Source: a virus
IMG/VR virus record: IMGVR_UViG_3300020459_000033
Coordinates: 1 to 37,367 of that record
DNA length: 37,367 bases
Reading direction: 5' to 3' (one strand)
Under the pieces are notes generated by a model, which saw only the letters and a program-made list of their open reading frames with translations, had not been told where the DNA came from and searched no databases. Of the stretch, positions 5,044-36,427 are shown piece after piece. Numbering within the stretch: the stretch's first letter is position 1; each line of letters begins with the position of its first letter. Made by a program: the position numbers and the translations under genes.

Positions 5044-8000
5044 TAACGACTGGTATTGATAAAAGAATTCAAGTACAACAAATTGTTGATAATCAACTTC
5101 CTGAATTTGTATTAAGTGAAAGTCCAAAGACAGTAGACTTTTTAAAACAGTACTACATTTCTCAGGAATATCGTGGTGGTCCGATTGATATTACTGATAA
5201 TTTAGATCAATATTTAAAATTAGATAATTTAACACCTGATGTTATAGTTGGTGTAACAACACTTGCTGAAACAAATCAGGATCCTGAAAATATAAAGGTA
5301 GGTATTGCTATAACTGCTTGGGGTAAGTACTATACTGGTGAGAAAACTATTAATGTTAGTAATACAAAAGGATTTCCTAATGAATATGGACTTTTAAAGA
5401 TTGATGATGAGATTATTACATATACTGGTAAAACATCTACTAGTTTTACTGGTTGTGTTCGTGGATTTAGTGGAATAACAACATATCATGATGATAATAA
5501 TCCAAGAGAATTAGTTTTTTCAACTTCTAGTGCAGAAATTCATAATATCGGATCTTCTGTTTCTAATCTTAGTGCTTTATTTTTACAAGAATTTTATAAA
5601 AAACTTAAATATACATTAACTCCTGGATTAGAAAACAGTGATTTTATATCTGATCTTGATGTTAATAATTTTATAAAAGAAGCAAAGTCATTTTTCCAGT
5701 CAAAAGGTACTGAACAGTCTTTTAAAATCCTTTTTAAAGTATTATATGGAGTAGATCCTACAATAATTGATCTTGAAGATTATTTAATTAAACCATCAGC
5801 TGCAAAGTATATTAGACGTGAAAGAATTGTTGCTGAAAGAATATCTGGAAATCCAATAAATTTACAAGGACAAACTGTTAGTAGGTCTGCTGATCTCAAT
5901 ACTACAGCGTCTATATCCGAAGTTGAACCTGTTTTAGGTGTTCCAGGATCAGGAATTCTTTCTGATTCTGATTATTTTATTTTAGATGCATTTATCGGAT
6001 ATGCTGATGAAGAATATGTTACTGGAACCTTTAATATTCCAGGTAAAACAAAGGTAATTGGTAATGTGCCAAAAGATTCAACTATTATTACAGTAGATTC
6101 TACTGTTGGTTTTGGCACTACTGGTACAATTATATCGGGTATTAACACTAATATTCAATATACTGATAAAACTGTAAACCAATTTTTAAATTGTTCTGGT
6201 GTTGATAATCCAATTTCTTCTGAAGATGATATAAGATTTGATGATAATATTTTTGGATACGAAAATGGAGATTTAACAAAGAAAGTAGAATTGAGAATTA
6301 CTGGAATTTTATCTAAATTTATTCCAAATGAAAATAATAGACTATCAATAGAAAAAGAGAGAGTTCTTATTAAAAGTCTTGGGGAAAATATTAAAAAGGG
6401 TAGTACAAATAAGGAAATATTTGCTAATTCGTGGATTTATAATTCATCTCCATCATATGATATAAATTCTGAAAGTATAATAGATAGAGGATCTAGTACT
6501 CTAACATTAAAAGAAGATATTTCAAGTGATAATTTTGATACTACAGGACTATCTACGGGTGATTATGTTGAAGTTATTGAAAAAACATTTAATCCTTTTA
6601 AGAATAAATCAGTTGTTACACCATCAAATCCAGGTGGAGTATCACCTGCTGAAATTTTCGATATTTCAACTGGTAATATAATTAAATTGATTAATGTAGA
6701 ATATAATTTAGAACGCACAAAAAATTATGCTGTAAGAAAGGTTTTAGATAAAGTATCAAGTACTGGTGCACCTGTTAAGTATGGAAATCAATTAACAACA
6801 AATATTCAGAATGTTTACAATGAATCGGATACTAATTTATATGTTGCGTCTAATTCGTTACCAAACTATACAATTACTAAAGATATTGTAAAATCAGAGA
6901 TTCCTATTGCTGATACATCAACAATACAAAATTATAATCCTATAACTGAAAAATATTCTGTAATATCTTTCGATAAAGATGTTTTATTTGTTACTGGAGA
7001 TGAAGTATATTATAGTGTACCAGAAGGTAAGGCAACATTGGTTGGATTAGAAGAAGGTGTATATTATGTTAAAGAATATCCAGGTGATAGACAAAAAATT
7101 AATTTATACTTATCACCTTCTTTTATTGAAACAGATGAACTTTTATCTAGATCTGGAGGGACTCCTAATAATTTTGTAGAATTTAATATACCATTAACTA
7201 ATAATGACAAACATACCTTTACTTTACTAAAACATTATAATCAGGAAATAGGTAATCAACGATTATTAAAGAAATTTCCAGTAGATTTATCTTTAAATGA
7301 CGGTAAAAATACTGAAACTATTCCTGGACCTGTTGGAATGTTGATTGATGGTGTAGAAATTAATAATTATAAGTCATCAGACAGTATTTTTTATGGACCA
7401 ATAGATAAAGTTTCTGTTTTAAGTTCAGGAAGTGGTTATGATGTAATTAATTTGCCTGAAATTTCAATTGCTGCTGGTTTAGGTTCTACTGCATTAGTTA
7501 AACCTGTTGTTACTGGAGATATTCAAGAAATTTTAGTAGATCCTCAAAATTTTGATATTGAAAGTGTAAATTCAATAAAAATTAGTGGTGGTAATAGTAG
7601 TGAAACTTTTTTAAGACCTATTGTTAGAAAAAGAAATAGAGAAATAGAATTTGATGGAAGATTGGCTACTGCTAATGGTGGGGTTGATAATCAAGCAGAA
7701 ACGATAACATTTAAAGAAAATCATAATTTAAAGAATGGACAAGTATTGGTTTATAATAAAAATAGAAATGATCAATTAGGGATTACTACATGGGGTGGAA
7801 GTAATGCTGATGCTTATGACACTTTAATTGATGGAGAAACATATTGGCCAGTAGTAGTTGGATTAAGCACAATTAAATTATTTGGTAGTGAAGATGATTA
7901 TATTAGTGGTATTAATACCATAGCATTTACATCCATAGCAAAATCTGGTATTCATAAGTTTAGACTTAAAAATGCTAAAAATACATTAAAGTCTGTTGAA

Positions 8001-11000
8001 ATTATATCTTCGGGCAGTTCATTTATAAATCGTCAAGTATATATTAATCCAACTGGAATTTCTACGGTAAATTCTTCTGCTTCCTTTAATAATCATGGTT
8101 TTTCTGATGGGGAATTGATTAGTTATACAACTGCTGCTGGAATTGGTTCTACAATTCCCACATCTATTAGTGGTTTATCAACTTCAATTCAATATAAGAT
8201 TATTAAATTAGATGATAATTCTTTCAGAATTTGTGATGCTGGAATTGGTGGAACGTCAAATGTAAATTATAATAATAAGGATTATGTTAAATTTGGATCA
8301 ACAGGAACTGGATATCAAGTATTTAAGTATCCAGATATTGAAATTACATCAAAAATTACATATTCTATTTCAACATCAGATAAAGTAACTTTAACTCCTA
8401 TTATTAAAGGTAAATTAAATGATTTAATACTTTATGAAAAGGGATCTTCATATGGTTCTCAAACAGTTATAAATTATCAAAATAATCCAGATATTATTGT
8501 AAAAGTTGGAAATAGTAGAGTCGGAACAAATATTCAACCAGCATTGCAACCAATTATATCTAATGGTAAAATAATTAAGGTTAATATTCAGAATGGTGGA
8601 GGAGAATATTATTCAATTCCTGATTTAAAAGTTGTTGGTGATGGGAATACTGCAAAGATAAGACCAATAATTGATACTAATCCAAATTCAAAAACTTACT
8701 TATCTATTATTGATGTAAAAATTATTAATGGTGGGGCTGGATTTACTACAAGTAAAACATCTATTAATGTTATACCATCTGGGTCTAATGCAGTGTTTGG
8801 GTTAGATATTAGAAAATTAAGTATAAACAATATAGAAAAATATGGTAGTGAGATATTAGAAGAATCTCAAAATGGATTAAGATATTCTGTAGTTGGATAT
8901 TCTACGGATATTGGTCGTAATTTTTATAATGATCCCAATCCTAATACTAATCATTCTTCAATTATTGGATGGGCTTATGATGGTAATCCCATATATGGTC
9001 CTTATGGTTATAGTGATCCTACTAAATTAGGTCCAAATATTAAGACTTTACAACCAAGTTATAAATTAGATCCTTCTAAGGTTATTGATAGACCTGGTAT
9101 TACTACATTTGCATCTGGATTTTTTGCAGATGATTATGTATATGATCCTACTATTGGTGATCTAGATGAACATAATGGAAGATATTGTAAAACTCCAGAT
9201 TATCCTGATGGAGTATATGCTTATTTTGTAGGAATATCAGATATTGATCAGTCTCCAAAATTCCCATATTTCATTGGAAATACTTATAGATCATCTGCTG
9301 ATGTTCTTGACCCAGAATCTAATATAACACAATCCTTTGATTTTAATAATTCAAATTTAGTTAGAAATACTGCATCATATAAGATGATTTCTGAATTTAC
9401 AAATAATGATTTTATTGTAGATTCGGATAAATTAATCCCACAATTAACAACTGTTGAATCAGTAACTCGTGGATCTGTAGATTCCTTAGATATTGTTAAT
9501 TCAGGTGAAAACTATAAAATAGGGGATAATATAACATTTGATAATACAAATACTAGCGGATCTGGATTGAGTGTTGCTGTTAATTCAATATCTGGTGTAC
9601 CAATAACTAATATTGAGACAATATATGAAGAATATGCAAATGTAAAATTGGTATGGAAGAATTCTAATACAGTATCTGCATCTATTTCAACATTTCATGA
9701 TTTATCTACTGGTAATAGTATTGAAATTTCTGGTATATCTAGTGATCTTAAGTCAGTTACAGGATCTCATACTATTGGTGTTAATAGTGAATCTACACTT
9801 TTATATCAACAATGTATTGCAAATCCATCATCATTAGGTATTGTAACAGATATTGTTGTTGGTAGAACATCTGATTTAATTTCTGTTGGTAGTAGTATTG
9901 GTATTGGTTCAGAAAGATTCTTTGTGCTTAATAAGTTTGAGGATAGGAATATATTAAGATGTGTTAGAGGTATTACTGGTACTGCACATACAATTTCTTC
10001 AAAAGTCACATTAATTCCAAATTCATTTGATATACCAGTAAAAACTGATTATTTTGATTCAAGATTGAATAAGATTGTATTTTTTAATCCAAAACAGTCA
10101 GTTGGAATTGCAACCGTTGCTGGATTTTCAACTTCAATAACTGTTACAGTTGCTGGTATGAATAAAACAGTATCTGTACCTGCTCAGAGCATATATCTTC
10201 CAGATCATGGATTTAAAACGGGAGATAAATTGATCTTTAAGGAACCTTCAAATGTTGGATTTACTAATATCGGTGTATCTACTAATGGAGTTGCTGGTGG
10301 TAATGTTACCAGTATTGGTCATGATGATATTGTATATGCTATTAATAAGTCTAAGGATTATATAGGAATTGTTACTAATGTTGCTGAGATTGGATCTGGA
10401 ATTGGAACTATTGGTCAAAGTTCTGGATTATATTTTATTGGTGATGCTGATAATGATTTTAGATACTCATTTAGAACACAATATAACCAAGTAACTGCTA
10501 CCGCAGAAAAAATTATAGCAACTGTTTCACTTTCTACTGATCATCAATTACAAGAGCAAGATAGGATTAGTTTAGAAGTTAAACCAAGAGATTCTGTTGG
10601 TATTGGAACTTCTACTGCAATTAAAGTCAAATATAATAGTATTAAAAATAAATTATTAATTAATCCTATTGGATTTAATTCTACTGGAGTTAATACTACT
10701 ACAAATACATTAACTATTAATTCTCATGGATTAAAAACTGGAGATAAAGTATTATATGATAATATTGGTGTTGGTCAAACTATTGTTGGTGGTTTAAGTA
10801 CTACTGGATATTTTGTTTATAGAATAGATGATAATAATATTAAATTATCAAATACGTATATTCAATCTACAAAAGTTCCTCCTGATGTGGTATCTTTAAG
10901 TAATAAGGGTGGTATTTCCCATGAGTTATCTTTAATTAATCCTCCAATCAATATTATAAAAGATAATAATTTAGTATTTGATGTTTCAGATTCTTCATTG

Positions 11001-14000
11001 TCTGGATATGATTTTAATTTATATTATGATAATAATTATATTGATAATTTTGTATCTACTGGTCAAACAAATAGTTATATTGTATCAAAAGTTGGGACAT
11101 CTGGAACAACTGGTTCTACTGTAACATTAAATTATTCTGATAGTAATCCATTAAATTTATTCTATAATATAGAAAAAGGTGGATTTATAAGTACATCTGA
11201 TATTGATGTTATCGATAAATCAAGAATTTCTTATATTGATAGTAAGTATAAAAATAATTATTCAATTTTAGGTGTTACCAGCACTTCATTTAAGATTGTA
11301 TTAGAAGATAAGCCAGAAATTCTTGGATATGCTTCAACTACTATAGGAGTAGGAACTATAACATATAGTACTGATTCTATAAGAGCTCGTGGTCCAATTA
11401 ATGATGTTAAAATTAATTCTGGTGGAGAAGGGTACAAACAATTACCTACATTTGTAAGTATTGCTTCAACTCAGGGAAAAAATGCTATTATTTTACCAAG
11501 ATCTAAAAATGCAAATAAAATTAATAATACTAATATATTAAATGTTGGATTTGAGTATGCTTCTGATAAAACTTTATTACCACTAGCAAAAGTATCTCCT
11601 GTAACATCATTAAGAAATTTTGATACGATTAAAGCAGTAACTATAACTGATGGTGGTTCTGGATATCAATCTAATCCTAAATTAGTTGTTGTTGATGAAG
11701 ATACTAGACAAGTTATTGAATCTGGTGCTTTGGAAGCAATTATAAGTTCATCAACTCAATCAATTGAGAATGTTAATGTATTATCCGAACCAAAAGGTAT
11801 TGGTAATGCTTTAATATATGCAATTGATGGTACAAATGGTGTTTCAATTACTAATGTTTCTATTGGTTCATCTCAACCTGATAGTACAACAACGGGTATT
11901 GTAACATTTGTTTTAGGTACACCTGTACTTGGATTTAGTGAAACTCCATTTGCAGTAGGGGATGCAGTATTTGTTGAGAATATACAAAATATTGATAATG
12001 GTGGAAGTACTATTAATTCTCCAAGTAATGAATTTAGAACTTATCCAGTAACAAAAATTAATTCAACAAATCCATTTGAATTAGAAATTAATGTAAATGG
12101 TATTTCGACAAATCCTGGATTTGCAAAATCAGAACAAATTTTTGCAAGTTTAGTTAATTATAATAAGTATCCTAAATTTACTATAACTAAAGAATCTACG
12201 GGATTTATTGAAGGGGAAGATATATTAGTAGATATAAATGGTTTATTTGTTAATAAGAAACTTATTTTAGATAAAATTGGTAATGATTATATAAAGATAT
12301 TAGGTAAATATGATTTACAAATTGATGATAAAATTAAAGGTGCAACAAGTGGTACTGTTGCTACTATCAATACCTTATTTGAAAATAAGGGATATTTTAC
12401 AGTAGATTATTCTTCTAGAAGAGATATTGGATGGCTTGATAACATTGGAAAATTGGATCAAGATTATCAAGTACTTCCTGATAATGATTATTATCAAAAT
12501 CTATCTTATACTATTCAAAGTCCAATTGAATATAAAGAATTGATTGATCCTGTAAATAGATTAGTTCATACGACTGGTCTTAAGAATTTTGCAGATATTG
12601 GAATTAGTTCTAGTACTAATTCTGGATTAACCACAGCAGTAGATGCTTCAACTATAGTTCGTGATTTTCTTAGTGATAATAGGGTAGATGCTATTAATGG
12701 ATTTGATATGGTTAGGGATATTGATATTCTTAGAAATCCATTAAGATCAAAATATATTCAATTTAAAAATAAAGAGTTAGTAAATTATTTTAAATGCAAA
12801 ACTAATAGAGTTCTAGAAATAGATAATATTAATACTTTATTTACAAATGCAACAAATAATGCCAGTCAAACTGGAGATATTGTGTTAGCGAATGGTTATG
12901 ATAGATTTTTGATTCAAGTTAGAAATCCAGAAAATAATGATATTCAATGTTCAGAACTTGTTACTTCAATAGATTATAATAGTAATGATGTATATACTAT
13001 TGAAAGAGGTTCAATATCAAATACTGGTATTTCTACTCTTAAAGATGATGTTTACAGAAGTCTTACAGATGTTATAGGAGTTTATGATGATGGATATAAA
13101 CTACAATTCTTACCAACTAATACGTTTGATATAGATCTTGATATTAAAATCTTCCAAAATTCGTTTAATTCTATAAGCGGTGATATTACTACTGGAATTG
13201 GAACAACTAGTTTTGGGTTTGCAGAACTAACTGGTATTGGTGCAGAAATTGGTTCTGGTACTACTGTTACACTTACTTCAGGTAATGTAGCAAATATAGA
13301 ATCATATTTTGTATCTGCTGAGTTAAGAGATACTACTACTTTTGAGAATCAAATTGTTGATCTTTATATAACTCATGATGGAACAAATTCTTATATTGCT
13401 AATTATGATTTAGATATAAACAATGATAGTGGTATTGGTACTTTCTCTTCAAAAATAGATTCTAATGTTTTATCCTTAGAATATACAAATGATAGATCTA
13501 ATGCAATTGAAGTTAGATCTAAAATAGTAGGTTTTGGTACTACTGCTTCTGGTATTGGAACTTATAGGTTTAAGTCTACAGAACAGCCAGATGGAAGTGA
13601 AGATTCTATAAGGATACAGTCTGAATTTACAAATGTAGCATTAGGAGCAACTACAACTATTGCTCAATTTAGTAAAACAAAAGATACTACTGTTAAGAGT
13701 ATAATAAGAACTTCAATAGGAAATACTAGTTCTGTGCATCAATTATTGATGATTCATGATGGAACTAATACATTTATTGAACAGTATCCATTTATCTCTA
13801 TCGGTAATGATATTGGAATAGGTACTTTCTCTTCAAGTATAAATGGATCTAACTTTAATTTAATCTTTACACCAAATACAGAGTTTTATGGTGGTGGTAA
13901 TATAGAAGTTCAAATTTTTAGTGAAATATTTAATACTAATATTGATACTATTAACACACCTTCAATTCTTACTTACGGAAAATCTATTGATTCATTATCA

Positions 14001-17000
14001 CTATTACAATTTGATGGGACAAATAGTATTAGAGGAAATACCAATGCCTTTAAATTAAGATATAAAAATACTCCAATTTTTGGAAAGTATTTTAATCCAA
14101 ATTCTAGTGCTTTAGAATCTTCTACTGGAAGGTTTACTATGAAGAATCATTTCTTTAATAACAATGAAAAATTAGTTTATACTCCAGGATCTTCAATTGA
14201 TAGTATTGGAATTTCATCACTTATAATGACTGGTGGAAACCCATTACCAAAAGTAGTTTATTGTATAAAGAATGATACTGATAGATTCCAAGTATCAATT
14301 ACATCGGGTGGTTCACCAATAACATTCTCTGGATTAGGTGCTGGTAATTATCATAGATTTGAAATGGATAAGAAAAATGAGAAGAGTTTTATTGTTCTAG
14401 ACGATATTATTCAATCACCTTTGGCATATACTCCAATTAAACAATCTCTTACTGGTAATGTTAGTGGTCAAGTCTCTATATCAACATCAGTACTTTCTCT
14501 TTCTGGTATTTCTACAATAGCTATTAATGATATTTTAAAAATTGATGATGAATATGTAAAGATAACTAATGTGGGTATAGGAACTACTAATGTTGGTCCT
14601 ATATCACCTTCTGGATCTTTAAAACTTGTCGAAGTTGAAAGGGGATTTGTTGGAACATCTGCATCTACTCATACAGACACTACTGATGTAAGATTATTTA
14701 AAGGTGGTTATAATATTATTGGAGATACGATTTATTTTAGCGAGACACCTCGTGGAAATAATGAAATAGCAAAAAGTGAATCTAATAGAAATAGTGGTAG
14801 AGCAAACTTTAGTGGAAGAGTTTATTTAAGACAAGATTATTCTTCTAATGTAATATTTGATGATATATCATCACAATTTACGGGAATAGGAAGAACATTT
14901 GTAATAACTTCAAGTGGTATTAATACAATTGGTCTTACAACAGGAAGTACCTTAATGACTGTTAATGGTTTCTTCCAAAAACCAACTACTGAAAATAACT
15001 TAGGTAATAATTATACATTTGATGGAAATGAGGCAGTAGGAATTACTAGTATTGTATACACTGGTATTAGTTCAAATAATGGAACAATTATTGTAAGTGA
15101 TATTGATGTTAATCAAAACCAACTTCCTAGATCTGGTGAAATCATTTCAATAGCATCTACTGGTGGATTAGGTATAGCACCTTTGGTTGGAGCAGCAGTA
15201 ACAGCAGTTATTGGCACTGGTAAATCTATTGTATCTGTTGGTTTAGGATCTGAGGATTTCAATGGATCTGGATATAGTTCTGGATTAAGTACAACTGGAG
15301 ATGGTTTAATATCAATTGGAATAACAGATGCTGCATATGATCATAAATTTGAGAGTGCTGTTACAAATTCTGTAACAGTCTCTGGAAATGGTATTGGTGC
15401 TGCCAGTGCAACATTTACACCTATGGATGTTTCATACATCTCACGTACAGGGGTTCTAGTGTTGACGAAAAATGCTCATGATCTTATTACATCTGATTCA
15501 CATCAAGCAACTACTGGAACCCAATATGATGGTACTGTTGGTATTATGACAGTTAAGTTAGCATCTACACCTAGTCCTGCTCTTGCAGATGGTCAGTTAG
15601 TTAAAATTGATGATCTTGGAGTTAAGTTTAAATGTGCTTTGGATTCTAATGCTACTGATCATGATTATCCAAGAGAAGGTGATCCTATAAGTGGTAAATT
15701 TGTTCCAATTTCTAATGTAAGTGGTGGAGATACATTTGAAATAACTGTATTAGACTATGTTCCATCATCTAATACTAGTGTTCATACTTTTGTATCTGGT
15801 GTTGCTGGTGCTATTAAGAGATCTGCTAATACCTTATCAATTGCTAACAGTGGTTTAGTGTTTAGATGTTCAAAGGATGGATACGCAACTGATCATCCAT
15901 ATCCACGTGCTGGTATTGATCCTGTTGCTGGAGTATCTACTGCAATTGTAGAGGCAACATCAAATAGTATTACTGTTAATGTTGGATCTGGTGGTGGAGT
16001 TGGAACTGGAGCATCAATCAGAGCATCTGTTGGTGTTGGAGGAACTTTAACCTTTGAAGTTGTTACTGGGGGAAGTGGATATGTTAATCCTATTATCATG
16101 CCACCTTCTCCATCATATGAGAATCTTGAAATAATTGGAGTATCTAAATTATCAACTGGTTCAACTACTCAAACTGGAAGTGGAACATTAATATCTCTTG
16201 ATGTTGGATCCGTTTCAACAACTGGAATAGGATCAACTTTATATGAAGTTAAATCTTTTGAAATAACAAGAAAGGGTTATGGATTTGAAAAAGGAGATGT
16301 ATTTAGACCAATATTTGATGGTGAAATTCCAAATAAGGTTGGAATAGTTACTGATAAAGGACTTCCATCAATGTTGAATAATTTTGAAATTACTGTTGAT
16401 AGTATATACACTGACAATTTCTCATTAGTCAATTTTGGTGAATTTGATTATCTAGATTCAATTCAAACTCTTCAAAATGGAAGTAGAACTAGATTCCCAT
16501 TAAAGTTTGATGGTGAGTTAGTTACATTTAAAACAGATTCCAGAGATGTAGATTCTCAATTAATTGAAATAAGATCTTTATTATTAATATTCATTAATGG
16601 TGTTGTACAGGTTCCAGGAGAATCTTATCTATATGATGGTGGAACAAGTTTTGTATTTACAGAACCACCAGATGAATTTGATAATGTTTCTCTTTTCTTC
16701 TATAAAGGAACAAATAATGTAGATATTGAATATACTGATATTATAGAAACTATAAAAACTGGTGATGAACTTCAAATTCTTAAAGATCCTAATAATAAAA
16801 TATTAGATCAAGAAAAAAGAACAGTTCTAGGAATAACTACATCTGATGTTGTTGAATCAAATTTATATTTTGATGTTGGTATTAATGAGGATTTTGATAG
16901 ACCTGTAATTTGGACTAAACAAAAACGTGATAAGGTTATTAATGGTGAAATGGTATATAAGTCTAGACGATCAATTGAACCATTAATATTCCCACAATCT

Positions 17001-17933
17001 AAAATAATTTCTGGATTAACAACAACTTCTACTGAACTTTTTGTAGATAACTTAAATTTATTTAATTATGAACTTGACTCACCTCTAAGTGCAAATGCAT
17101 TAATTGTTGATAATTCACAAACTTTAGCGGGTGCTTCTCTTACTGCTGTTGTGTCTGCTACTGGTACTGTTAGCTCTATTTCAGTTGTTGATGGTGGTTC
17201 AGGTTATGTTGGGGCAACAATTGCTGTTTCAATTGGAATACCAACAACTGGAACGCCTATATCAAGTGTTAGTCTTAATCCTATTGCCCTTGGAACTGCA
17301 AATATTACTGCTGGAATTATTACTAGTGTTACTGTCACAAATCCTGGATTAGGATATACTAGATCAAATCCACCACAAGTTATTGCACCAATACCAACAG
17401 CACCAAAAGAAGTTATTAGTGGTATTGCTAATACTTCTGGATTTACTGGAATAGTTACTGGAATAACAACAACTGGTGGAACCTCAGGTAATCCATTAGC
17501 ATTAAAATTCTTTATCAATAGACCAGATGGTGAGGCATGTACTCCATTATCTAATGGATATCCAATTCATATTTTTGATACTTCGGTTGGATCTGGAGTA
17601 ACTTCTATTGATAGTGGAAATGATGCGGTAGTTGGAATAGGAACTACTTATTTGGATAATGTTTATTATGTTCGTTCAGTTGCAATTACTGCCAATAGAG
17701 CAGAATTTGTAGCAAATGTTGATTCTGGTTCTGATGTTATTGGAATTGGAACAACTGGAATTGGATGTGGTAAATTCTCTTGGGGTAGATTATCTGGATT
17801 TACTAGATCATCAGAACCAATATCTATTGCAGTAACTGGAAAAACAGTTAATACTGGATTCACAACTTATCCAACTATACAAAGAAGGAAAGCTGGGTTT
17901 AGAGGCACTGGTGCAATAGACACTAAATTATAG
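5040..17933 (+). CDS. 7: Giant gp7-type baseplate wedge protein (4297 aa)
   Basis: The slot directly after gp6 and before gp8 is that of T4 gp7 (1032 aa), but this protein is four times longer. The anchor to gp7 is at about residues 210-265: SFFQSKGTEQSFKILFKVLY and following, close to the C-terminal SKGxExSxKFLFKVLY region of T4 gp7. It begins QIVDNQLPEFVLSESPKTVDF, which looks like a conserved wedge-docking segment. The rest is beta-rich and mosaic. A DDEI...RG module is at about 103-150 and again near 1600 and 3150. GGSGY-type repeats lie between 793 and 4120. A YHYH domain is at about 1281-1418. HDGTN repeats are near 2760 and 2890, and ATDH-YPR repeats near 3530 and 3608. A NDYYQNLSYTIQSPIEYKEL segment is about 2475-2495. 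The C-terminus (FSWGRLSGFTRS...) looks conserved. No transmembrane segment is seen. Confidence 0.85.
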   Translation: MITTGIDKRIQVQQIVDNQLPEFVLSESPKTVDFLKQYYISQEYRGGPIDITDNLDQYLKLDNLTPDVIVGVTTLAETNQDPENIKVGIAITAWGKYYTGEKTINVSNTKGFPNEYGLLKIDDEIITYTGKTSTSFTGCVRGFSGITTYHDDNNPRELVFSTSSAEIHNIGSSVSNLSALFLQEFYKKLKYTLTPGLENSDFISDLDVNNFIKEAKSFFQSKGTEQSFKILFKVLYGVDPTIIDLEDYLIKPSAAKYIRRERIVAERISGNPINLQGQTVSRSADLNTTASISEVEPVLGVPGSGILSDSDYFILDAFIGYADEEYVTGTFNIPGKTKVIGNVPKDSTIITVDSTVGFGTTGTIISGINTNIQYTDKTVNQFLNCSGVDNPISSEDDIRFDDNIFGYENGDLTKKVELRITGILSKFIPNENNRLSIEKERVLIKSLGENIKKGSTNKEIFANSWIYNSSPSYDINSESIIDRGSSTLTLKEDISSDNFDTTGLSTGDYVEVIEKTFNPFKNKSVVTPSNPGGVSPAEIFDISTGNIIKLINVEYNLERTKNYAVRKVLDKVSSTGAPVKYGNQLTTNIQNVYNESDTNLYVASNSLPNYTITKDIVKSEIPIADTSTIQNYNPITEKYSVISFDKDVLFVTGDEVYYSVPEGKATLVGLEEGVYYVKEYPGDRQKINLYLSPSFIETDELLSRSGGTPNNFVEFNIPLTNNDKHTFTLLKHYNQEIGNQRLLKKFPVDLSLNDGKNTETIPGPVGMLIDGVEINNYKSSDSIFYGPIDKVSVLSSGSGYDVINLPEISIAAGLGSTALVKPVVTGDIQEILVDPQNFDIESVNSIKISGGNSSETFLRPIVRKRNREIEFDGRLATANGGVDNQAETITFKENHNLKNGQVLVYNKNRNDQLGITTWGGSNADAYDTLIDGETYWPVVVGLSTIKLFGSEDDYISGINTIAFTSIAKSGIHKFRLKNAKNTLKSVEIISSGSSFINRQVYINPTGISTVNSSASFNNHGFSDGELISYTTAAGIGSTIPTSISGLSTSIQYKIIKLDDNSFRICDAGIGGTSNVNYNNKDYVKFGSTGTGYQVFKYPDIEITSKITYSISTSDKVTLTPIIKGKLNDLILYEKGSSYGSQTVINYQNNPDIIVKVGNSRVGTNIQPALQPIISNGKIIKVNIQNGGGEYYSIPDLKVVGDGNTAKIRPIIDTNPNSKTYLSIIDVKIINGGAGFTTSKTSINVIPSGSNAVFGLDIRKLSINNIEKYGSEILEESQNGLRYSVVGYSTDIGRNFYNDPNPNTNHSSIIGWAYDGNPIYGPYGYSDPTKLGPNIKTLQPSYKLDPSKVIDRPGITTFASGFFADDYVYDPTIGDLDEHNGRYCKTPDYPDGVYAYFVGISDIDQSPKFPYFIGNTYRSSADVLDPESNITQSFDFNNSNLVRNTASYKMISEFTNNDFIVDSDKLIPQLTTVESVTRGSVDSLDIVNSGENYKIGDNITFDNTNTSGSGLSVAVNSISGVPITNIETIYEEYANVKLVWKNSNTVSASISTFHDLSTGNSIEISGISSDLKSVTGSHTIGVNSESTLLYQQCIANPSSLGIVTDIVVGRTSDLISVGSSIGIGSERFFVLNKFEDRNILRCVRGITGTAHTISSKVTLIPNSFDIPVKTDYFDSRLNKIVFFNPKQSVGIATVAGFSTSITVTVAGMNKTVSVPAQSIYLPDHGFKTGDKLIFKEPSNVGFTNIGVSTNGVAGGNVTSIGHDDIVYAINKSKDYIGIVTNVAEIGSGIGTIGQSSGLYFIGDADNDFRYSFRTQYNQVTATAEKIIATVSLSTDHQLQEQDRISLEVKPRDSVGIGTSTAIKVKYNSIKNKLLINPIGFNSTGVNTTTNTLTINSHGLKTGDKVLYDNIGVGQTIVGGLSTTGYFVYRIDDNNIKLSNTYIQSTKVPPDVVSLSNKGGISHELSLINPPINIIKDNNLVFDVSDSSLSGYDFNLYYDNNYIDNFVSTGQTNSYIVSKVGTSGTTGSTVTLNYSDSNPLNLFYNIEKGGFISTSDIDVIDKSRISYIDSKYKNNYSILGVTSTSFKIVLEDKPEILGYASTTIGVGTITYSTDSIRARGPINDVKINSGGEGYKQLPTFVSIASTQGKNAIILPRSKNANKINNTNILNVGFEYASDKTLLPLAKVSPVTSLRNFDTIKAVTITDGGSGYQSNPKLVVVDEDTRQVIESGALEAIISSSTQSIENVNVLSEPKGIGNALIYAIDGTNGVSITNVSIGSSQPDSTTTGIVTFVLGTPVLGFSETPFAVGDAVFVENIQNIDNGGSTINSPSNEFRTYPVTKINSTNPFELEINVNGISTNPGFAKSEQIFASLVNYNKYPKFTITKESTGFIEGEDILVDINGLFVNKKLILDKIGNDYIKILGKYDLQIDDKIKGATSGTVATINTLFENKGYFTVDYSSRRDIGWLDNIGKLDQDYQVLPDNDYYQNLSYTIQSPIEYKELIDPVNRLVHTTGLKNFADIGISSSTNSGLTTAVDASTIVRDFLSDNRVDAINGFDMVRDIDILRNPLRSKYIQFKNKELVNYFKCKTNRVLEIDNINTLFTNATNNASQTGDIVLANGYDRFLIQVRNPENNDIQCSELVTSIDYNSNDVYTIERGSISNTGISTLKDDVYRSLTDVIGVYDDGYKLQFLPTNTFDIDLDIKIFQNSFNSISGDITTGIGTTSFGFAELTGIGAEIGSGTTVTLTSGNVANIESYFVSAELRDTTTFENQIVDLYITHDGTNSYIANYDLDINNDSGIGTFSSKIDSNVLSLEYTNDRSNAIEVRSKIVGFGTTASGIGTYRFKSTEQPDGSEDSIRIQSEFTNVALGATTTIAQFSKTKDTTVKSIIRTSIGNTSSVHQLLMIHDGTNTFIEQYPFISIGNDIGIGTFSSSINGSNFNLIFTPNTEFYGGGNIEVQIFSEIFNTNIDTINTPSILTYGKSIDSLSLLQFDGTNSIRGNTNAFKLRYKNTPIFGKYFNPNSSALESSTGRFTMKNHFFNNNEKLVYTPGSSIDSIGISSLIMTGGNPLPKVVYCIKNDTDRFQVSITSGGSPITFSGLGAGNYHRFEMDKKNEKSFIVLDDIIQSPLAYTPIKQSLTGNVSGQVSISTSVLSLSGISTIAINDILKIDDEYVKITNVGIGTTNVGPISPSGSLKLVEVERGFVGTSASTHTDTTDVRLFKGGYNIIGDTIYFSETPRGNNEIAKSESNRNSGRANFSGRVYLRQDYSSNVIFDDISSQFTGIGRTFVITSSGINTIGLTTGSTLMTVNGFFQKPTTENNLGNNYTFDGNEAVGITSIVYTGISSNNGTIIVSDIDVNQNQLPRSGEIISIASTGGLGIAPLVGAAVTAVIGTGKSIVSVGLGSEDFNGSGYSSGLSTTGDGLISIGITDAAYDHKFESAVTNSVTVSGNGIGAASATFTPMDVSYISRTGVLVLTKNAHDLITSDSHQATTGTQYDGTVGIMTVKLASTPSPALADGQLVKIDDLGVKFKCALDSNATDHDYPREGDPISGKFVPISNVSGGDTFEITVLDYVPSSNTSVHTFVSGVAGAIKRSANTLSIANSGLVFRCSKDGYATDHPYPRAGIDPVAGVSTAIVEATSNSITVNVGSGGGVGTGASIRASVGVGGTLTFEVVTGGSGYVNPIIMPPSPSYENLEIIGVSKLSTGSTTQTGSGTLISLDVGSVSTTGIGSTLYEVKSFEITRKGYGFEKGDVFRPIFDGEIPNKVGIVTDKGLPSMLNNFEITVDSIYTDNFSLVNFGEFDYLDSIQTLQNGSRTRFPLKFDGELVTFKTDSRDVDSQLIEIRSLLLIFINGVVQVPGESYLYDGGTSFVFTEPPDEFDNVSLFFYKGTNNVDIEYTDIIETIKTGDELQILKDPNNKILDQEKRTVLGITTSDVVESNLYFDVGINEDFDRPVIWTKQKRDKVINGEMVYKSRRSIEPLIFPQSKIISGLTTTSTELFVDNLNLFNYELDSPLSANALIVDNSQTLAGASLTAVVSATGTVSSISVVDGGSGYVGATIAVSIGIPTTGTPISSVSLNPIALGTANITAGIITSVTVTNPGLGYTRSNPPQVIAPIPTAPKEVISGIANTSGFTGIVTGITTTGGTSGNPLALKFFINRPDGEACTPLSNGYPIHIFDTSVGSGVTSIDSGNDAVVGIGTTYLDNVYYVRSVAITANRAEFVANVDSGSDVIGIGTTGIGCGKFSWGRLSGFTRSSEPISIAVTGKTVNTGFTTYPTIQRRKAGFRGTGAIDTKL
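8880..9293 (+). other. YHYH domain embedded in gp7
   Basis: Within gp7 (about residues 1281-1418). Core: HSSIIGWAYDGNPIYGPYGY, followed after about 50 residues by NGRYCKTPDYPDGVYAYFV and then FPYFIGNTYR. These are the defining blocks of the YHYH family (PF14240 as I recall it), found in secreted and surface proteins of marine bacteria and phages. Function is not established. Confidence 0.8.
13345..13930 (+). repeat. Two diverged HDGTN repeats inside gp7
   Basis: Two copies about 125 codons apart (13374 on and 13752 on). Each has HDGTN, a tyrosine-containing strand, a D-x-GIGTFSS turn, a further strand, and a segment ending near IEV. The DNA still shares GGTACTTTCTCTTCAA exactly. This indicates an internal duplication of a beta-sandwich-like unit. 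Confidence 0.75.
15619..15975 (+). repeat. Two ATDH-YPR repeats inside gp7
   Basis: Copies about 80 codons apart: FKCALDSNATDHDYPREGDP and FRCSKDGYATDHPYPRAGID. Shared positions are F-x-C-x2-D-x2-ATDH-x-YPR and then a strand (EITV / ITVNVG). Similar motifs occur in other marine phage structural proteins; function unknown. Confidence 0.75.
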
Positions 17934-31951: not shown

Positions 31952-32389
31952 ATGTCTAGTTATGATCCTATCGATGAAGCACTAAACACAACTAGTGCTA
32001 TTGAAGTAAGTAATACACCAGAAAATGGATGTATTACGAGAAAAGATAGTACAAAAAATATTACAGATGATGTTGAAAAAGATTATGAATATACACGTGC
32101 TAACTTATATTCTTTGATTGAGAAGGGTCAAGAGTCCCTTAATGGTATTATGGAACTTGCGGGTGAAAGTGCAAGTCCAAGGGCATATGAAGTTGCAGGA
32201 CAGATTATAAAATCTGTTGCTGATACAACTGATAAGTTAATGGAGTTGCAAAAGAAGGTTAAAGAAGTTGATGAAGAAAAGGCAAACACTACAAACAATG
32301 TTACCAATAATGCAGTCTTTGTAGGGTCTACTAGTGACCTTTCAAAGATGATTAAACAACAATTCCTAAATAATAGTAATAAAGAGTAA
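31952..32389 (+). CDS. 16: Terminase small subunit gp16
   Basis: 145 aa (T4 gp16 is 164). DYEYTRANLYSLIEKGQESL, then NGIMELAGESASPRAYEVAG and QIIKSVADTTDKLMELQKKV, is the helical-hairpin core of gp16, followed by a C-terminal tail with KMIKQQF. The subunit forms rings, recognises DNA and regulates the ATPase of gp17 during head filling. An asparagine/threonine-rich linker (NTTNNVTNNAV) separates core and tail. It starts 5 bases after gp15. Unlike in T4, gp17 does not follow directly. Confidence 0.9.
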   Translation: MSSYDPIDEALNTTSAIEVSNTPENGCITRKDSTKNITDDVEKDYEYTRANLYSLIEKGQESLNGIMELAGESASPRAYEVAGQIIKSVADTTDKLMELQKKVKEVDEEKANTTNNVTNNAVFVGSTSDLSKMIKQQFLNNSNKE

Positions 32390-32393
32390 TAAA

Positions 32394-33944
32394 GTGGATT
32401 TAGCTCAAAGAAGACAACAGTTGCGTCAAAAGCAAGTTGAAAAGGTTAAGAAGTTTAGGCAGTCTAACCAGTCTTCTTCTGATGCAATCGAAAAGCAAAA
32501 TGACAGAGAGCAAATGAAAAGGGAAATTAAAAAAGAGCTAAGTCAAGAATCTATTAATATTGAGAACTCTGATGGTGTAACTTTTGCTAGGGTTATGGAT
32601 ATTGTTGGACCTTCTAATATGAAACCTCTTGTTTCTGGTGGACTATGGAAAGGCACTGAGCAAATTAGTGAAAAGAAATCTGATTGTGAGTGTGATGATT
32701 GTGGACAAGATCCATGTATAGAATGTGGTGAAAGTCATCATAATGTTAAAGAAGAAATGAAAGTTGAGAAAGATGATGCTGGTCCTGGTACAGAAGATCA
32801 GCAACAAAAACAAATTGATGCTAAACAAAAGAAAGCAGATCAGATAAAGAAACAAGTTTTACTTAAAAAATTACAAGCAGTAAGACAAGGTGGTGGTAGT
32901 GAGATAATGGCATCCTATGATTGGAAATCTGATAAAAGTATGAGGATTAATAAAATTGCAGAGGGTTCTTTACATAAGTGGTTTAAAGGTTCTAAATCAA
33001 AAGATGGTAAAGGTGGATGGGTTAATGTAGTCACAGGTGGAACTTGTGCGAGTGATGAACCAGGAGAAGGAACACCCAAGTGTGTATCATCTTCTAAGAG
33101 AGCAAGTATGACTAAGGCAGAAAGAGCATCTGCATCTAGAAGAAAGAAAGAAGCAGATCCTGGTCAACAATCCAAGTCTGGTGCAGCAAAACCAACTTAC
33201 GTTTCTACTGATAAGAAAAAAATGAAAGAAGAAACTACACTCGACGAAAAGTGCTGGGCTGGTTATACCCAGAAAGGAATGAAGAAGAAAGGTAAGAAAG
33301 TAGTTCCTAACTGTGTTCCTGTTGGTGAAGCAAAGGAAGAACAAGGACGTTCTGATTATGGTAAAGCATCAGTAAGAAACAAACGAAAGTTTGGTAAGGC
33401 GGGTGAACCTGCTATATTTGATGCTAGTGGTGAAAGAGGTAAGATGATTGATAAAAGAAGAGAAGAGCACAAAGCAAAACGTGGTGTAAAAGAAGAAGTA
33501 GTAACTGAGGCAGATAAGAAAGGAAAGGGTAGTGGTAAGAAAGATGCTTGCTACAATAAAGTAAAGGCAAGTGCAAAGGTCTGGCCTTCTGCATATGCAT
33601 CTGGTAGATTGGTACAGTGCCGTAAGAAAGGTGCTGCTAACTATGGTAACAGTAAGAGTGAATCATACTCTTGGAGAGATGATTTTGATTATGTAAAAGA
33701 AGGTGCTGCATGGACTAAGAAGGCAGGAAAGAATAAAGAAGGTGGATTAAATGAGAAAGGTAGAAAATCTTACGAACGTGAGAATCCTGGTTCTGATTTA
33801 AAGGCACCACAACCAGAAGGTGGTTCTAGAAAGAAATCATTCTGTGCTAGAATGGGTGGAATGAAAAAGAAACTTACCAGTTCTAAGACTGCTAATGATC
33901 CAGATTCAAGGATCAATAAAGCACTTAGAAAGTGGAAGTGCTGA
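32394..33944 (+). CDS. Basic cysteine-pair mosaic protein (DUF6321-like C-terminus) between the terminase subunits
   Basis: 516 aa; the start is GTG at 32394, four bases after gp16, with a weak AGAG upstream. Order of parts: a charged coiled coil (1-55); a Cys cluster C-x-C-x2-C-x4-C-x2-C (about 98-112); a helical K/Q stretch; LHKWFKGSKSKDGKGGW ... CASDE (about 193-232); CWAGYTQKGMKKKGKKVVPN followed by C (about 286-309); KDACYNKVKASAKVWPSAYA ... CRKKGAANYG (about 376-420). The C-terminal 78 residues (AWTKKAGKNKEGGLNEKGRK ... FCARMGGMKKKL ... ALRKWKC) match what I recall as DUF6321. Each motif recurs singly in marine T4-like phages. It is probably a nucleic-acid-binding or capsid-associated protein; function unknown. 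Confidence 0.7.
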   Translation: MDLAQRRQQLRQKQVEKVKKFRQSNQSSSDAIEKQNDREQMKREIKKELSQESINIENSDGVTFARVMDIVGPSNMKPLVSGGLWKGTEQISEKKSDCECDDCGQDPCIECGESHHNVKEEMKVEKDDAGPGTEDQQQKQIDAKQKKADQIKKQVLLKKLQAVRQGGGSEIMASYDWKSDKSMRINKIAEGSLHKWFKGSKSKDGKGGWVNVVTGGTCASDEPGEGTPKCVSSSKRASMTKAERASASRRKKEADPGQQSKSGAAKPTYVSTDKKKMKEETTLDEKCWAGYTQKGMKKKGKKVVPNCVPVGEAKEEQGRSDYGKASVRNKRKFGKAGEPAIFDASGERGKMIDKRREEHKAKRGVKEEVVTEADKKGKGSGKKDACYNKVKASAKVWPSAYASGRLVQCRKKGAANYGNSKSESYSWRDDFDYVKEGAAWTKKAGKNKEGGLNEKGRKSYERENPGSDLKAPQPEGGSRKKSFCARMGGMKKKLTSSKTANDPDSRINKALRKWKC

Positions 33945-33950
33945 TTGGTT

Positions 33951-35597
33951 ATGAGTGATAATGTATACCTTGGTAATCCTAATCTAAAAAAAGCAAATAC
34001 TGCAATACAATTTTCTCAAGATAATATTCTTGAGTTTTTGAAGTGTAAAGATGATCCCATATATTTTACTAGAAAGTATATAAAAATAGTCTCTCTTGAT
34101 GAGGGACTGGTTCCTTTTAACATGTATGATTTCCAAGAGAAATTAATTAGAAGGTTCCATGAAAATAGATTTAATATCTGTAAGATGCCTCGACAGACAG
34201 GTAAATCTACCACTTGTATATCATACTTATTACATTATGCAGTTTTCAACGATAACGTCAACATTGCTGTTCTGGCAAACAAAGCATCCACGGCTAGAGA
34301 TCTACTTGGTAGATTGCAACTTGCATATGAAAATTTACCTAACTGGATGCAGCAAGGTATAATATCTTGGAATAAAGGTTCATTAGAATTAGAGAACGGG
34401 TCAAAAATATCAGCAAACTCCACTTCATCATCTGCTGTTCGTGGTGGATCTTATAACGTTATATTCCTTGATGAGTTTGCATTCATTCCAAATCACATTG
34501 CCGATGATTTCTTTGCATCAGTTTATCCTACTATTACATCAGGACAATCCACTAAGGTTATTATAGTTTCTACCCCAAGGGGTATGAATCATTTCTATCG
34601 TATGTGGCACGATAGTGAGAAGGGAAAGAGTGATTATATACCAACTGATGTGCATTGGAGTGAAGTTCCAGGTAGAGATGATGCATGGAAAGAACAAACG
34701 ATTGCTAATACCTCAGAAGCACAATTTAAGATTGAGTTTGAATGTGAATTCTTAGGATCTGTTAATACCTTAATCAGTCCAGTAAAACTTAGAAATCTTG
34801 TATATGAAGAACCTATAACAAGAAATGCGGGTCTTGATATTTACGAAGAACCAGTAAAAGATCATAATTATATGATGACAGTTGATGTTGCCCGTGGATT
34901 GGGTAATGATTATTCTGCTTTCATAGTTTTTGATATTACAGAGTTTCCATATAAAGCAGTAGCAAAGTATAGGAATAATGAAATTAAACCTATGCTATTT
35001 CCTAATATCATACATGATGTTGCTAAGGGATATAATGAATCATTTGTATTGGTAGAAGTAAATGATATTGGAGATCAGGTTGCAAGTATTCTTCAATATG
35101 ATTTAGAGTATGATAATCTTCTTATGGCATCCATGAGAGGAAGAAATGGGCAGATTGTTGGTCAAGGATTTTCGGGTAAGAAATGTCAGTTAGGTGTAAG
35201 AACAACAGCAGCAGTTAAAAAGTTGGGTTGTTCTAATTTGAAAACTATGCTTGAAGATGATAAGATATTAGTTAGTGATTATGAGATTATATCAGAACTA
35301 ACTACCTTTGCTCAAAAGCACAATTCATTTGAAGCAGAGGAAGGTTGTAATGATGATCTTGCTATGTGCCTTGTTATATTTGCTTGGGTAGTAGCACAGG
35401 ATTATTTTAAAGAAATGACGGACAATGATGTTCGGAAGAGAATTTATGAAGAACAGAAGAATCAAATAGAACAGGATATGGCTCCATTTGGATTTGTTGC
35501 TGATGGTTTAGATGATACTACATTTGTTGACAATGAGGGTGATGTATGGCATACTGATGAGTACGGAGATAGATCATACATGTGGGATTATAGATGA
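33951..35597 (+). CDS. 17: Terminase large subunit gp17
   Basis: 548 aa from ATG 33951 (T4 gp17 is 610). An in-frame TTG at 33945 gives two more residues but the ATG is preferred. Walker A CKMPRQTGKST has its lysine at about residue 85 and matches T4 MPRQLGKT. Walker B is VIFLDEFAFIPNH. The coupling motif VSTPRGMNHFYRMW is present. The C-terminal RNase H-like nuclease has MTVDVARGLGNDYSAFIVFD and a later NDDLAMCLVIFAW with acidic residues in the metal site. gp17 docks on the portal, packages DNA by ATP hydrolysis and cuts the concatemer. The end TGA overlaps the next ATG. Confidence 0.96.
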   Translation: MSDNVYLGNPNLKKANTAIQFSQDNILEFLKCKDDPIYFTRKYIKIVSLDEGLVPFNMYDFQEKLIRRFHENRFNICKMPRQTGKSTTCISYLLHYAVFNDNVNIAVLANKASTARDLLGRLQLAYENLPNWMQQGIISWNKGSLELENGSKISANSTSSSAVRGGSYNVIFLDEFAFIPNHIADDFFASVYPTITSGQSTKVIIVSTPRGMNHFYRMWHDSEKGKSDYIPTDVHWSEVPGRDDAWKEQTIANTSEAQFKIEFECEFLGSVNTLISPVKLRNLVYEEPITRNAGLDIYEEPVKDHNYMMTVDVARGLGNDYSAFIVFDITEFPYKAVAKYRNNEIKPMLFPNIIHDVAKGYNESFVLVEVNDIGDQVASILQYDLEYDNLLMASMRGRNGQIVGQGFSGKKCQLGVRTTAAVKKLGCSNLKTMLEDDKILVSDYEIISELTTFAQKHNSFEAEEGCNDDLAMCLVIFAWVVAQDYFKEMTDNDVRKRIYEEQKNQIEQDMAPFGFVADGLDDTTFVDNEGDVWHTDEYGDRSYMWDYR

Positions 35598-36199
35598 TGA
35601 ATCTAAATGATTTTGTTTATGTTAAAGATAATGTTATAAGTAAAAAAATATGTGAAGATATTATTAATAGATATGAGAGTGATAATAGAAAACAACATGG
35701 AATGGTTGGAATAGGATCTGATAAGAAGATAGTAGACTCTAGTCTGAAAAACTCTATAGATTTATCAATCAGTGAACATGAAGAATGGAAGGATATTGAT
35801 AATATGCTATGCCATACTGTTACAGATATGATTCAAGAATATATCGACTATTCTTATACATTTTTTAATAAATTAAGTCCAAGACCAAGACCATTTCATG
35901 GTGTTGGTTTTACTGATAGTGGATATAATGTAAAAGGATATGAACCAGGTGGATATTTTCATTGGCATGATGATTTTGCTATTTCAGAAACAGGTAATGT
36001 ACGAATGATAGCGATGTTAATTTATTTAAATGATATTGGTATTGGTGGAGGTGGATACACAGAGTTTATTAGTGGTAAAAAAGTTAGACCATCCGCAGGA
36101 AGAGTACTTATGTTTCCAGCTACTTGGAATTTTATACATCGTGGAGTTCCACCTAATAAAAATAAGAAATATATTATTTCAACTTACTTGTACCAATAG
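35594..36199 (+). CDS. 2-Oxoglutarate/Fe(II)-dependent oxygenase (prolyl-4-hydroxylase-like)
   Basis: 201 aa. Double-stranded beta-helix enzyme: GYEPGGYFHWHDDF (about 115-128) gives the HxD iron ligands (H125, D127). NFIHRGVPPNKNKKYIIST (about 179-197) gives the distal histidine H182 and, ten residues on, K192 for 2-oxoglutarate. YTEFISGKKVRPSAGRVLMF is the standard strand between. The catalytic set looks complete. Cyanophages carry many such enzymes; substrates are mostly unknown, and protein or DNA hydroxylation is inferred only. Start at ATG 35594 (a second ATG is at 35597); it overlaps the gp17 stop by 4 bases. It lies in the late operon between gp17 and gp18, so a virion protein substrate is conceivable. 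Confidence 0.87.
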   Translation: MMNLNDFVYVKDNVISKKICEDIINRYESDNRKQHGMVGIGSDKKIVDSSLKNSIDLSISEHEEWKDIDNMLCHTVTDMIQEYIDYSYTFFNKLSPRPRPFHGVGFTDSGYNVKGYEPGGYFHWHDDFAISETGNVRMIAMLIYLNDIGIGGGGYTEFISGKKVRPSAGRVLMFPATWNFIHRGVPPNKNKKYIISTYLYQ

Positions 36200-36427
36200 A
36201 TGGATTTTGAAGATCAAATAGAATTAGATCATTTACTCTTAAAAGAACGGAAGTGTAGAAGTTGTGGTAAGGTTAAGGATTTGATGGAAGATTTTTATTT
36301 GACACGTAAAGATAGAACATATCCATCAGCATATTCTTATGAATGTAAAATATGTACAGTAAAAAGAATAGTTAATAGTAGAAGGAATAAAATAAAATTT
36401 GTTGATTGGTTATACCCAGATTGGTAA
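36200..36427 (+). CDS. Small Zn-finger protein (HNH-associated type)
   Basis: 75 aa. CRSCGKVKDLMEDFYLTRKD, then a tyrosine-rich turn and ECKICTVKRIVNSRRNK: two CxxC pairs spaced about 30 residues, the zinc ribbon seen at the N-terminus of phage HNH endonucleases (K-x-CxxCG-x-x-K-x3-F/Y). No HNN/HNH catalytic part follows, so it is either a degenerate remnant or a free-standing DNA-binding finger. The ATG abuts the oxygenase stop with no gap. Basic C-terminus; ends WLYPDW. Confidence 0.7.
   Translation: MDFEDQIELDHLLLKERKCRSCGKVKDLMEDFYLTRKDRTYPSAYSYECKICTVKRIVNSRRNKIKFVDWLYPDW

Follow-up and report, generated by a model that had tools for sequence, protein, structure and literature searches.

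The modular basic protein encoded between gp16 and gp17 of the window, by which we mean the whole analyzed stretch of 37,367 bases from a virus record, is probably (at a rough probability of 0.6) a head-internal virion precursor that is cut by the prohead protease and whose basic peptides stay with the DNA. Three elements of this reading, namely, presence in virions, module shuffling, and sites at the module joints, are supported in relatives of the protein.

The modular gene, its family, and its genome position

The window carries T4-like structural genes of the marine cyanophage type in the order gp14, gp15, gp16, modular gene, gp17, 2OG-Fe(II) oxygenase gene, endonuclease-VII-like gene, and start of gp18. 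The modular gene (32394..33944, plus strand, as for gp16, gp17, and all modules and predicted sites given below) has a GTG start and encodes a protein of 516 residues (57 kDa, pI 9.66, net charge +42) of the family T4-GC119/phrog_3477/phrog_727. The identities of both neighbors are secure. The terminase small subunit gene gp16 (31952..32389; PF11053, 1.5e-7; phrog_445, 2e-53) has its stop codon at 32387-32389, leaving 4 nt to the GTG, and the end of the modular gene abuts the open reading frame of the terminase large subunit gene gp17 (33945..35597; Terminase_6N, 1.2e-19; Terminase_6C, 2.7e-13; phrog_2), which opens with TTG at 33945, the ATG at 33951 being the more likely start. The coordinates thus confirm the description in the earlier note of a 516-residue gene separating gp16 and gp17, with a GTG four bases past gp16. 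The modular gene is taken to be real because its dN/dS of 0.11-0.14 against four relatives indicates purifying selection and because the GTG start and the N terminus are kept in L002, L012, L017, and L082. Between gp17 and gp18, the window encodes the oxygenase (35594-36199) and the small endonuclease-VII-like protein (36200-36427); the latter gene is retained in L003 and L082, whereas nothing closely related to the oxygenase was observed at this position. Elsewhere, in the baseplate region, a single open reading frame of 4297 residues (5040-17933) is unusually long.

The protein consists of an N-terminal basic helix region followed by module H, a five-Cys cluster, and modules A, B, I, C, and D. 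Specifically, the N-terminal region comprises residues 1-55 (32394..32558), with an AlphaFold2 helix at residues 3-52 and pLDDT values of 76-78 across the first 20 residues, and module H was assigned by profile match to residues 56-77 (32559..32624). The five-Cys cluster, CECDDCGQDPCIEC, spans residues 98-111 (32685..32726), with Cys at positions 98, 100, 103, 108, and 111; it is lineage-specific, being limited to the window and its nearest relative L002, and is missing from L082, L012, and L017. Profile matches placed module A at residues 193-273 (32970..33212; two Cys), module B at residues 287-308 (33252..33317; two Cys, modeled by AlphaFold2 as a low-confidence beta-hairpin), the basic, Cys-free module I at residues 316-364 (33339..33485), and the helical module C at residues 376-419 (33519..33650; two Cys). 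Module D at residues 439-516 (33708..33941; two Cys) corresponds to DUF6321, with a PF19846 match at residues 445-514 (E=8.5e-21; 74.8 bits against a curated cut-off of 28.5). The earlier note had described a five-Cys cluster strung together with at least four Cys-pair basic motifs, the protein ending in a DUF6321-like domain; this composition is borne out, the two-Cys basic modules being four in number (A, B, C, and D). A cluster resembling that of the window, CGCGKDPCI, also occurs ahead of the DUF6321 module in a protein with a targeting sequence (L049:916-1500).

Apart from the C-terminal DUF6321 domain, Pfam recognized nothing in the modular protein; a weak match to IBR (E=0.38) lay under the cut-off and was rejected. 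Every PHROG match was to a family of unknown function, and NCBIfam and PDB sequence searches gave no match. Foldseek returned no fold match, and no claim about the fold is made because the AlphaFold models were too weak, with a pLDDT of 44 for the whole protein and 56.5 for modules C-D.

Relatives were found by tblastn in 514 phage records, nearly all of them Synechococcus, Prochlorococcus, and Pelagibacter phages; only 11 loci were located in bacterial assemblies, chiefly MAG or single-cell contigs. One DUF6321 match in a host assembly, on the Prochlorococcus AG-418-C09 single-cell contig (L315, 5001-5258), possibly represents a co-captured phage genome. The modular protein conforms to the T4-GC119 pattern, in which modules A-C are combined with D at the end and the gene mostly lies within gp15-gp17, and the gene is a family member rather than an insertion peculiar to one phage. 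Profiles for modules A, B, C, D, I, E, F, G, H, and N were seeded from the window and its relatives, and modules were counted in 115 non-redundant multi-module proteins, a few of which are clipped at contig ends. These proteins display 61 different module orders, with module D in the last position in nearly all relatives. Two Cys residues are present in 449 of 456 module instances (A, 107/107; B, 120/120; C, 110/111; D, 112/118).

The earlier note had read the position of the gene as an insertion between the terminase subunits and had proposed a role in DNA packaging. The placement recurs in 73 multi-module relatives in which both gp16 and gp17 are visible, and together with the tight spacing to gp16 it would suit an accessory of the packaging motor linking gp16, gp17, and DNA. 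However, the position is weak evidence for such a role because the gp16-gp17 interval is a published insertion hot-spot (Sullivan et al. 2010, PMC3037559, citing Millard et al. 2009). In many phages, unrelated genes occupy the same interval. Moreover, the gene precedes gp16 in P-SSM2 and L006, where it lies between gp15 and gp16 (it is similarly beside gp16 in L011 and L014), and the P-SSM7 DUF6321 gene, a member of T4-GC119, is remote from the terminase genes, near the cytidylyltransferase gene and nrdA. A terminase-like domain is absent from the family protein according to Pfam, PHROGs, and NCBIfam, and packaging accessories are not expected to be retained in the virion. A packaging role is therefore considered very improbable.

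Predicted protease sites at the module joints

The T4 prohead protease gp21 cuts after L/I-x-E (PMC9026906). In the clade of the window, the N-terminal stretch of the major capsid protein gp23 ends in L-x-E, with A, T, S, Q, or G as the next residue, as read from 39 contigs. In the mosaics, a motif close to the T4 rule and in agreement with this gp23 site, [LIVM]-x-E, ends at most 8 residues upstream of 427 out of 551 module starts (A, B, C, D, E, and G), compared to 138 ± 9 when the upstream stretches were shuffled, a control that ignores relatedness. Related motifs remained at the shuffled level ([LIVM]xD, 66 versus 60; [KR]xE, 110 versus 115; [ST]xE, 89 versus 85), the reversed motif was only 1.3-fold increased (189 versus 141), and [LIVM]xxE was 1.8-fold increased. 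Inside modules, [LIVM]-x-E is depleted (186 versus 260 expected), whereas it is enriched in linkers (924 versus 535 expected), and the stricter [LI]xE is likewise enriched before modules A, B, C, D, and G. When junctions were grouped by type, half or more of the junctions had the site for 7/7 types ahead of module A, 8/8 for B, 4/6 for C, 6/7 for D, 5/5 for E, and 5/5 for G. This retention of the site after different partner modules argues against a single inherited accident, with the limitation that the shuffles ignore relatedness. Modules F and H have a weak site or none (11/61 and 18/54). Note that Val is the most frequent residue at P3 ahead of modules A, D, and G, whereas T4 gp21 is documented for L/I.

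In the window protein, candidate sites with the following predicted P1 residues were located (the slash marks the predicted cut): Glu93 before the Cys cluster (ISE/K; 32670..32672), Glu190 before module A (IAE/G; 32961..32963), Glu285 before module B (LDE/K; 33246..33248), Glu312 before module I (VGE/A; 33327..33329), Glu372 before module C (VTE/A; 33507..33509), and Glu436 before module D (VKE/G; 33699..33701). Further matches lie in linkers (VKE, 120; MKE, 279; VKE, 367) and within module D (LNE, 454). Judged from these sequence motifs, the mosaic is probably processed by the prohead protease.

Alternatively, the protein could be an uncleaved structural component of head, neck, or tail whose acidic joints serve as flexible linkers or recombination points. 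The relatives are indeed virion proteins, no cleavage product is known, and the 61 module orders speak for frequent swapping, for which Glu-rich linkers could provide short homology at the joints. However, the enrichment is specific to the ordered hydrophobic-x-Glu motif, being hardly or not seen for shuffled and related motifs and reversed to a depletion within modules. In addition, the DUF6321 proteins checked from the T7-like phages P-SCSP1g and KBS-P-1A and from HTVC033P, none of which is expected to have a T4-type protease, carry no hydrophobic-x-Glu before the domain; T7-like phages are not known to possess a T4-type prohead protease. We regard the uncleaved alternative as rather unlikely.

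Presence of relatives in virions and head targeting sequences

Evidence for virion association comes from relatives, among which the window's own phage does not figure. ORF137 of S-CREM2, which is encoded between terS and terL and has modules D and G in common with the window family while being devoid of modules A, B, and C, was detected in purified virions by mass spectrometry with 4 unique peptides and 4.1% coverage (PMC10665884). S-SCSM1 ORF29 carries the record label "virion protein"; mass spectrometry of this virion revealed 45 virion proteins (PMC9602691), and as 48 such labels were counted in the record, the label tracks the mass spectrometry closely, not exactly. The family members of S-P4 and S-B43 are annotated as "structural protein", and the P-SSP7 paper, in which proteome data were looked for, contains none. 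Taken as a whole, the family is very likely virion-associated.

A head-internal location is suggested by targeting sequences. T4 IPII and IPIII both open with MKTYQEFIAE, and P-SSM7_194, which has MKTYSQFIEE at its start, carries a DUF6321 module matching that of the window in 81/81 residues. Similar starts are found in L049 (MKTYTQFIEE), L044 (MKTYSQFIVE), and L051 (MKTFDQFIEE), such MKT[YF]xQFIxE sequences being identical to the IPII/IPIII propeptide in 6-7 of 10 positions. Proteins bearing a capsid-targeting sequence (CTS) are present in virions, among them S-CREM2 ORF136 and S-SCSM1 ORF91 (NMNAT). The window protein, which starts with MDLAQRRQQ, lacks an N-terminal T4-like CTS, as do the large mosaics. 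CTS-like motifs inside the mosaics showed no enrichment (4 observed versus 4.1 expected) and were dropped as evidence for head targeting. The part of the earlier note that concerned virion and head contents is sustained by the relatives in virions, by DUF6321 behind a T4-like CTS, and by DUF6321 among T7-like head genes (see below); neither absence from virions nor a location elsewhere in most relatives, which the earlier note had named as counterevidence, was found. We consider it likely that the family protein is head-internal.

T4-like targeting sequences were also observed on other proteins. They open cyanophage cytidylyltransferase/NMNAT proteins (e.g., MKSFLQFLKE, MKKFSAFLTE, and MKSFLKFLSE; L085:38819-40048, L227:2504-3664, L008:6694-7968, L041:6667-7908, and L044:2551-3711), which would account for the detection of cytidylyltransferase/NMNAT in cyanophage virions by mass spectrometry (PMC9602691, PMC3037559). 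Module-G-like proteins (phrog_1742) feature MKSFxxFLSE-type starts (L054:2815-3123, L056:11163-11477, L226:5251-5568, and L084:44215-44535), and proteins of 144 residues combine a targeting-like start with a stretch resembling the start of mature gp23 (EQPTNSVGSDGY; L098:259-693, L114:1112-1546, and L165:1737-2171).

In a variant of the precursor reading, the released two-Cys mini-proteins might be effectors that are ejected to act on the host or its defenses, with an array varying with the host. The internal proteins of T4 form a diverse, CTS-tagged set that is in part anti-restriction (PMC3012670), CTS-tagged enzymes are packaged by the present phages too, and the module repertoire is permuted and variable. 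However, most relatives retain modules A, C, and D, whose strong conservation is unlike the behavior of fast-changing effectors, and no effector domain was recognized; an effector array thus appears unlikely.

For the protease-cut, head-internal precursor, the following course is proposed. A chain of small basic, mostly two-Cys modules would be synthesized late and would enter the prohead core along with the scaffold, a step that for the window protein would have to proceed without an N-terminal CTS. The T4-type prohead protease would then cut after the Glu of [LIVM]-x-E just upstream of most modules, freeing peptides of about 25-90 residues with a net charge of about +6 to +14 each. These peptides would stay with the DNA in the filled head and, like T4 internal proteins, may leave together with it on ejection. 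Lysines of T4 internal proteins touch DNA phosphates (PMC3012670); by analogy and from their charge, the released peptides may well be DNA-bound, at odds somewhat short of even. Tentatively, the protein might be a cyanophage polyprotein from which the prohead protease releases interchangeable two-Cys mini-proteins within the head, to be loaded onto the genome and carried into the cell with it, with module shuffling tuning the cargo.

Comparison with known systems

The closest described group is the cluster T4-GC119 (Sullivan et al. 2010), with which modules A, B, C, and D are held in common and most members of which are located in the same genome region; it includes SSM1_115, PSSM2_123, PSSM7_194, and the S-P4 "structural protein, T4 GC0119". 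The family, which occurs in about 500 records of marine cyanophages, has been described only as "hypothetical" or "structural" protein since 2010. In the literature searched, which was largely without subscription papers, neither a description of module shuffling or protease-like joints in T4-GC119 nor a paper on DUF6321 by name was found. If the protein is a prohead-protease polyprotein, this would provide a function-level hypothesis for a common unknown virion protein of the oceans.

DUF6321 proteins of T7-like cyano- and pelagiphages share the C-terminal domain, whereas they are single-domain proteins without a module array; the gene adjoins scaffold or major capsid genes in 4/4 of the T7-like phages examined (P-SCSP1g, KBS-P-1A, S-CBP4, and Ran EXVC014P). 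In HTVC033P and Ma-LMM01, the DUF6321 gene has surroundings other than head genes. The phrog_1742 proteins are of the module-G type found inside other mosaics, and in several relatives their gene immediately follows that of the mosaic, yet they differ in being single modules carrying their own targeting sequence. The T4 core proteins gp22, gp67, and gp68, likened here without sequence comparison, undergo several gp21 cuts with partial retention of the fragments, whereas the modules of the mosaics are basic and Cys-paired.

T4 IPI, IPII, and IPIII resemble the family in being basic and virion-associated and in having a hydrophobic-x-Glu cut site, which is a predicted one in the family. The window protein is basic and Lys-rich like these internal proteins (net charge +42, pI 9.66), whereas an N-terminal CTS ending in L/I-x-E is found in relatives having its DUF6321 module and not in the window protein itself. 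Furthermore, the T4 internal proteins are single-domain proteins with one N-terminal cut, whereas the mosaics comprise many modules with a candidate site before most of them. If the proposed processing is true, a T4-like targeting sequence together with hydrophobic-x-Glu joints would constitute a rule for predicting head cargo, which also covers the virion cytidylyltransferase/NMNAT, and the T4 internal-protein idea would be widened from single proteins to shuffled arrays.
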